IMG/VR virus record: IMGVR_UViG_3300025110_000153
Coordinates: 1-21,809 of that record
Direction: 5' to 3' (one strand)
DNA length: 21,809 nucleotides
DNA from: a virus
Part shown: in pieces, positions 18,838-19,370 of the stretch
Position numbering within the stretch: position 1 is the first letter of the stretch
Layout of the letters: the number at the start of each line of letters is the position of its first letter
The notes under the pieces: model-generated
What the model was told of the DNA's origin: nothing
What the model saw: the letters and a program-made list of their open reading frames with translations, nothing else
Databases searched by the model: none
Translations under genes and position numbers: made by a program

Positions 18838-19370
18838 CTAGCGGAGTCTCTTCGCTCTATCTATTTCTTTCTGCTGGTCTTCGTTTAAAACTTGAAAATA
18901 GGAACTCCAGCCAAGAATTTCTTCTAAGGAAAGTTGCCTGATTTCTACTAAAGATTTTCCTAGTTCTTTAGCAATGCTGAATTGCAGCATCATTAAGTTA
19001 TCTTTCCTTAGTTCTTGGCTTAAAGTTTTGGGTCTATTGGCTCCTGATCGTCATTAATAATGGCCAACATTAAAGCCTGTAGATCAGCGTCTCTGACTTC
19101 ATTTTTTAGTATGTCTATTTCTCCAAGAGTGAATAACCTTTCACCATTTTCGTCTTGAGCTTTTGTCAAAAGTAAACGAAGAGCAAACTCATTTGCATCA
19201 TCAGATTTAGCTCCTTTTTGTGCTCTTTCTCTTTCTGCCATTGTTAATGGTGTTACCCATAATTCAAATATGGTTCCATCAGATAATTCAACCTCTTTCT
19301 TTGTAGCATCTAAGTTTGCAGCCTTTTTTAAACGATCTATTGCACGAAGCGGTCTTGAGCTAGTAGCCAT
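18838..19370 (-). CDS. Tail assembly chaperone, G-T type fusion made by -1 frameshift
   Basis: A frameshift product of 177 residues. The first 115 residues are shared with the short form. After the slip at CCCAAAA, 62 more residues are read in the -1 frame, from TLSQELRKDN through FSIAKELGKSLVEIRQLS and LEEILGWSSYFQVL to RAKRLR, ending in TAG at 18840-18838. The added part has the helical T-domain character (LG...IRQLS...EEILGWSSYF) known from lambda T and its relatives, where the G and GT forms coat the tape measure before tube assembly. It fills the space to the tape measure that would otherwise be an unexplained gap. No start in the -1 frame gives the full domain independently. Confidence 0.85.
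18909..19032 (-). promoter_or_regulatory. Programmed -1 ribosomal frameshift signal with bulged stem
   Basis: On the minus strand the slippery heptamer CCCAAAA (19032-19026, read C CCA AAA in the zero frame) is followed by a 5-nt spacer (19025-19021). A 19-nt arm AGCCAAGAACTAAGGAAAG (19020-19002) comes next, and its exact reverse complement follows in two blocks, CTTTCCTTAG (18933-18924) and TTCTTGGCT (18917-18909), separated by a 6-nt bulge. All 19 pairs match; the loop is 68 nt. The zero-frame stop (19022-19020) lies right at the stem base. A stem 5-9 nt after an X XXY YYZ heptamer is the standard layout of such signals. Confidence 0.85.
19020..19370 (-). CDS. Tail assembly chaperone, short (G-like) form
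   Basis: The zero-frame product of 116 residues. A basic N-terminus (SSRPLRAIDRLKKAANLD) precedes KKEVELSDGTIFELWVTPLT, the beta part common in tail assembly chaperones. An acidic helix-rich region (ANEFALRLLLTKAQDE to DADLQALMLAIINDDQE) follows. The stop comes just after the slip site, as in lambda G. It should be the major product, with a minority of ribosomes making the G-T fusion that recruits tube subunits to the tape measure. It follows the terminator behind the major tail gene, so transcript levels should be below those of the tube protein. The ATG has no obvious ribosome site. Confidence 0.82.
   Translation of the reverse strand: MATSSRPLRAIDRLKKAANLDATKKEVELSDGTIFELWVTPLTMAERERAQKGAKSDDANEFALRLLLTKAQDENGERLFTLGEIDILKNEVRDADLQALMLAIINDDQEPIDPKL

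Follow-up and report, generated by a model that had tools for sequence, protein, structure and literature searches.

A programmed −1 frameshift probably operates in the tail chaperone gene of this phage, most likely stimulated by a branched RNA stem past the slip site, and the 3′ partner of that stem appears to have been replaced several times near a 5′ arm of fixed position. The window, which is the whole stretch of DNA analysed here, comprises 21,809 nt of the uncultured virus record IMGVR_UViG_3300025110_000153. The best named relative of its chaperone is that of Synechococcus phage KBS-S-2A (65.5% amino acid identity), and its large tail protein has matches in the Synechococcus siphoviruses S-LBS1, S-CBS1 and S-CBS3. 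The window and its relatives are a family of uncultured viruses akin to KBS-S-2A. The virus is a marine phage whose host, judging from phage relatives alone, is presumably cyanobacterial; when contigs of bacterial genomes were scanned once with the chaperone, no relative was returned, and hence nothing that would point to a prophage or a host.

On the minus strand, the genes follow the order tail terminator (PHROG 179), a 256-aa ORF that stands where the major tail protein would be expected and ends at 19463, chaperone, and a tape measure-like ORF (18807-16342, 821 aa; tape measure PHROG match, E 2.9e-4). The chaperone matched PHROG 20784 (E 1e-32) and, at E 9e-6, the tail assembly chaperones of PHROG 344. 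A short chaperone ORF between the major tail position and the tape measure is the arrangement of lambda-type G/GT genes, and −1 frameshifting of tail chaperone genes is known from lambda and many dsDNA tailed phages. Lambda gpG/gpGT shares with the window the order of tail genes, chaperone, overlapping −1 extension and tape measure, as well as a slippery heptamer near the 0-frame end with short and long products, the latter being predicted in the window. Unlike lambda, the window has a strong branched RNA stem right past the slip site and a 0-frame stop only one codon past that site, and in one clade of its family the slip site is the non-canonical CCCCAAG. The features are collected in Table 1.

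Table 1. Features of the predicted frameshift region, in window coordinates.
Feature	Position	Strand	Basis or remark
Tail assembly chaperone, 0-frame product, G-like, 116 aa	19020..19370	−	ORF; PHROG matches
AGGAG, Shine-Dalgarno-like word that may stimulate slipping, 8 nt 5′ of heptamer	19041..19045	−	sequence
Slippery heptamer CCCAAAA, phase C_CCA_AAA	19026..19032	−	in phase with chaperone ORF
Spacer CTTTA, 5 nt between slip site and stem	19021..19025	−	sequence
0-frame stop TAA, one sense codon past slip site	19020..19022	−	spacing same in relatives
5′ arm of long stem, AGCCAAGAACTAAGGAAAG	19002..19020	−	pair probability about 0.98; synonymous null 0/4000
Inner hairpin 1 of predicted three-way junction	18973..18991	−	MFE structure
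Inner hairpin 2 of predicted three-way junction	18947..18972	−	MFE structure
3′ arm, upper helix, CTTTCCTTAG, 10 bp	18924..18933	−	predicted fold
Bulge AAGAAA, 6 nt, one-sided	18918..18923	−	predicted fold
3′ arm, lower helix, TTCTTGGCT, 9 bp	18909..18917	−	predicted fold
−1 frame extension, T-like, 62 aa + TAG (18840-18838)	18838..19026	−	open in relatives; dN/dS

An earlier note on this DNA, made from the letters alone, had placed CCCAAAA at the end of the short chaperone. The heptamer lies there in frameshift phase, one codon ahead of the stop, and C_CCA_AAA is an in-phase X_XXY_YYZ site near the 0-frame end, as in lambda-type G/GT genes. Relatives were gathered in two sets. A search with the chaperone protein returned 80 viral loci, and pattern and extension searches added to these gave 230 unique sequences. 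In each of the 80 protein-found relatives a slip-type sequence occupies this place, CCCAAAR in 69 and CCCCAAG in 11, and exactly one codon separates it from the 0-frame stop. The stop spacing was identical in 230/230 unique sequences, which is partly enforced by the search patterns; because these patterns fix part of the slip region, conservation of the slip site is quoted from the protein-based set. Upstream of the heptamer, exact AGGAG was found in 12% of low-GC CCCAAAA relatives and looser Shine-Dalgarno-like words in 74%, which is suggestive only of a putative role of AGGAG as an upstream stimulator of slipping. Shine-Dalgarno-like words occurred in 74-100% of low-GC relatives and were absent from GC-rich CCCAAAG and CCCCAAG relatives.

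Reading in the −1 frame added 62 residues up to the TAG that the earlier note had named. An extension of 60-63 aa was retained in nearly all relatives; the exceptions were L036, in which it breaks after 30 aa, and the distant cyanophages, which differ. The slip site of L036 is intact, and the break is either a sequencing error or a defective gene. The dN/dS of the extension was about 0.06-0.12 within clusters, indicating strong purifying selection, and the overlapping −1 extension is thus under protein-level selection as in lambda-type G/GT. The T-domain character ascribed to it was weak in the window itself, whose extension matched the tail proteins of PHROG 337 at E 0.019, and clearer in relatives, the extension of a GC-rich relative matching PHROG 337 at E 2e-5 and PHROG 14766 at E 1.5e-4. 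Since the slip site, the stop and the extension are conserved, dN/dS is low and tail PHROGs are matched, if weakly in the window, the −1 frame is very likely translated.

The extension might instead be translated by re-initiation or from an independent start past the chaperone stop, without a frameshift, and a separate CDS is indeed annotated in the corresponding region of Cyanophage S-H1. However, the conserved part of the extension starts right at the heptamer (TLSQEL/ILSAEL) in the window and its relatives, 5′ of the first ATG of that frame, and CCCAAAR is conserved in 69/80 protein-found relatives. We regard this explanation as highly improbable. A putative lambda G/GT-like frameshift at CCCAAAA is well supported, because the geometry of slip site and stop is conserved, the extension is under purifying selection and the gene position is like that of lambda G/GT.

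The stem past the slip site was described beforehand as 19 bp long, starting 5 nt downstream, with a 6-nt bulge and a 68-nt loop. All 19 pairs were found to be Watson-Crick, with zero G-U, and the spacing and the bulge were as described. The distance of 68 nt between the arms was also correct, but this segment is not a bare loop: it folds into two hairpins, and the element is therefore a three-way junction, predicted in both the MFE and the centroid structure. Mean pair probability of the stem was 0.98, the same within an 800-nt context, and the fold of the slip-site region, which had been proposed as a check, predicted the stem at z −4.6 against dinucleotide shuffles. In the synonymous null, the −1 frame was recoded with the codon usage of the window's own genes. 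None of 4000 recodings reached the energy of the duplex (z −5.9), and 1 of 2000 reached the MFE (z −5.1). Among 43,358 window positions on both strands, the two arms were the third-best non-overlapping pair at such a distance. Strongly complementary segments about 100 nt apart also occur at 20971 (−) and 20849 (+), inside a 206-aa ORF; this pair is slightly more stable than the frameshift stem.

Frameshift stimulators start 4-10 nt past the motif, are 17-140 nt long and have an unfolding energy of at least 7.6 kcal/mol (PMC4066793). The branched element of the window (19020-18909) agrees with these rules, with its 5-nt spacer, its length of 112 nt and its energy of −35.8 kcal/mol. The stem had been called unusually strong, which holds against recoded sequence and against the relatives. 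It is not unprecedented, because branched hairpins of 17-140 nt are standard for stimulators of the IS3 family (PMC4066793), and the stimulator of IS911 is a three-way junction (PMC5009743). The IS911 element shares with the window an outer stem with two hairpins, starting about 5 nt past an XXXYYYZ site, and possibly an upstream Shine-Dalgarno-like word. In contrast to IS911, the window's element lies in a phage structural gene, without evident sequence kinship, and it has a long outer stem in which 6 nt bulge out on one side. E. coli dnaX likewise has a slip heptamer, a downstream stem and an upstream Shine-Dalgarno-like sequence, but its hairpin is compact and simple, whereas the window's arms are 68 nt apart and its structure is branched.

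According to the proposed mechanism, the branched stem (19020-18909) would stand at the mRNA entrance of the ribosome, stall it on the slip site and raise the slip rate. Most ribosomes would terminate two codons later at the TAA, at the base of the stem, and release the short chaperone. A minority would slip from C_CCA_AAA to CCC_AAA, unwind the stem and read 62 codons, giving a chaperone with a C-terminal T-like domain. The occurrence of slipping, its rate and its stimulation by the stem are what we infer from sequence comparison, and the window's stem is very probably the stimulator, though as one lineage's own variant of an element that has been rewired repeatedly. Since the 0-frame stop comes before the stem and only frameshifted ribosomes translate through it, the stem serves a single coding frame, which may explain its free rewiring.

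The exact stem was found in no clade but the window's, where it was kept in 5/5 unique sequences. The sole arm substitution in this clade, A to G, leaves a G-U pair. Inner hairpin 1 shows T/C variation at one pair with pairing kept, and inner hairpin 2 shows C/T variation in its loop. The window's stem cannot be assessed by covariation, because the clade is nearly invariant. L011, whose chaperone is 87% identical to that of the window, and most other relatives do not have the exact stem. A heptamer kept with pairing lost had been set beforehand as the outcome that would speak against the stem, and for the exact stem this was the outcome in L011 and most others. Fewer than half of the relatives share this structure; in other clades the pairing is with other partners.

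A partner scan compared the 5′ arm with successive 3′ windows under the synonymous null, index 0 being the first base of the slip site. The best 3′ windows started at 34-50 in the low-GC clusters 62.13 (z −4.2) and 62.8 (−2.2), at 74-90 in 63.6 (−3.3), 62.6 (−4.1), 62.3 (−3.6) and weakly 63.7 (−1.3), and at 106-114 in the window's clade (−3.0) and the CCCCAAG clade (−3.2). In many clades the 5′ arm still forms a stem, but pairs with another 3′ partner than in the window. The partners lie roughly at 34-61 in some low-GC clades, at 74-103 in GC-rich CCCAAAA relatives and some low-GC clades, and, for the window's clade as for the CCCCAAG clade, at 99-124.

One consensus structure for all GC-rich CCCAAAR relatives showed no covariation, and arm-specific tests were therefore used. 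When arms were swapped among GC-rich CCCAAAA relatives, the 5′ arm paired better with its own 3′ arm at 78-103 (z −5.4), and swapping within clusters gave z −5.0 (0/2000), in tests that control for relatedness only in part. This is evidence that the two arms of these relatives coevolve, as read from their sequences. Fixed-register covariation in the GC-rich mid stem was modest: paired cells made up 68.5%, where shuffles averaged 67.5 and reached 68.3 at most. Double changes in fixed register were no better than in slid controls, and the arm-swap test is for this reason the main evidence.

A stem of this kind could also be an RNA processing or stability element, such as an RNase III cleavage site or, between the chaperone and tape measure genes, a 3′ end block, with incidental proximity to the slip site. 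A near-continuous 19-bp stem has a size that could fit an RNase III substrate, and the stem lies directly 3′ of the chaperone stop codon. However, it sits wholly within a −1 coding extension under purifying selection, so that cleavage would destroy the fusion message; the 5′ arm keeps its position relative to the slip site even among clades that differ in the 3′ partner, and an Rfam search of the window gave zero matches to known elements. We consider a processing element unlikely, and the stem is better read as a stimulator.

Folding after the slip site was also compared with the synonymous null. The mean z was −1.24 (low GC) and −1.40 (high GC) for CCCAAAA relatives and −2.04 for CCCCAAG relatives. 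CCCAAAG relatives showed little excess (−0.15 to −0.28), and the averages of the controls, taken upstream and from the tape measure, were −0.7 to 0. The excess was absent from clusters 62.7, 62.12 and 63.4, and the stem is therefore not universal. Slip-site strength was related to folding at p 1e-6 per sequence and p 0.13 per cluster; because of the cluster-level value, the trend between slip-site type and structure is only suggestive.

These patterns bear on the simplest alternative, that the frameshift is real and driven by CCCAAAA alone, perhaps with AGGAG, the stem being a functionless accident of codon choice in one lineage. No structural requirement is known for lambda-type genes, and close relatives such as L011 are without the stem. 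In E. coli, few motifs are as prone to shifting as C_CCA_AAR (PMC4066793), and the small folding excess in CCCAAAG relatives points the same way. An accident of codon choice is, however, hard to reconcile with the 0/4000 synonymous recodings that equal the stem, with its start 5 nt past the slip site, the required position of a stimulator, and with the independent stems of other clades on the same 5′ arm, which are coevolving or codon-frozen. On balance we think it improbable that the heptamer acts alone, and a stimulatory stem is retained as the preferred reading.

The codon-frozen case is the CCCCAAG clade. Here the canonical heptamer is lost: AAG in the A site cannot re-pair in the −1 frame, whereas re-pairing is possible for the proline codon (C_CCC). 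Slipping in E. coli takes a strong stimulator at C_CCC tetramers and at C_AAG (PMC4066793). A 12-bp stem, CUAGCCAAGGAG:CUCCUUGGCUGG, around a three-way junction was predicted in 33/33 unique CCCCAAG sequences, three of which have a C-to-U change in its first pair that is kept as U-G. Degenerate codons were invariant at 16 of 17 positions in the junction against 11 of 40 elsewhere (Fisher 3e-6; the inner helices were picked after the fold was known, and the outer stem alone gave p 0.017), and the junction codons are free to vary among CCCAAAR relatives. For Leu codon 38, CTT was found in 33/33 CCCCAAG sequences and CTC in 53/58 relatives. The register of this stem is one nucleotide off that of the window, and in a tree of 97 relatives and KBS-S-2A, with noisy per-row stem labels, the two clades fall into different major groups. 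For these two reasons, the long-range stem probably has a separate origin in each clade.

Frameshifting in tail chaperone genes is a textbook example of a product ratio that has to be precise, and it is usually discussed as a slip site that involves little structure or none. The strength of a stem in a phage tail gene, the switching of partners within one family and the link between a weak site and a frozen strong stem appear to be new. More tentatively, at a little less than even chances in our judgement, the slip site may have stayed fixed in one family as its stimulatory RNA was rebuilt through near, middle and far 3′ partners, with stem strength tracking slip-site weakness. Part of this trade-off reading is that all CCCCAAG sites come with a synonymously frozen long-range stem, and the more slippery CCCAAAG sites with little structure. 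If it is true, these environmental phages are a natural experiment in the trade-off between slip site and stimulator that holds the chaperone ratio constant. Hundreds of related environmental sequences, with a constant slip position and interchangeable long-range stems, permit a direct test of whether a weaker slip site is compensated in evolution by a stronger stimulator. Two distant arms with frozen synonymous codons, past an overlapping stop, would also provide a search rule for missed frameshift extensions, e.g. that of KBS-S-2A.

KBS-S-2A has a −1 extension in the same place as the window, with 51% amino acid identity in the extension; it differs in its slip site, A_AAA_AAC directly before TAA, and in the local fold predicted. 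Its chaperone extension (L002, record 34104-34268) is unannotated. In Synechococcus phage S-H1 (L005 1875-2018), the CDS annotated in the corresponding region is AZB50580.1, and an in-phase A_AAA_AAC is present at the end of the upstream ORF. A terminator-like hairpin of the intrinsic type, AACCCTGC-TTCTT-GCAGGGTT followed by a T-run, was noticed on the minus strand of the window at 19436-19416, between the end of the 256-aa tail ORF and the chaperone start at 19370; it could lower expression of the chaperone relative to the tail protein.
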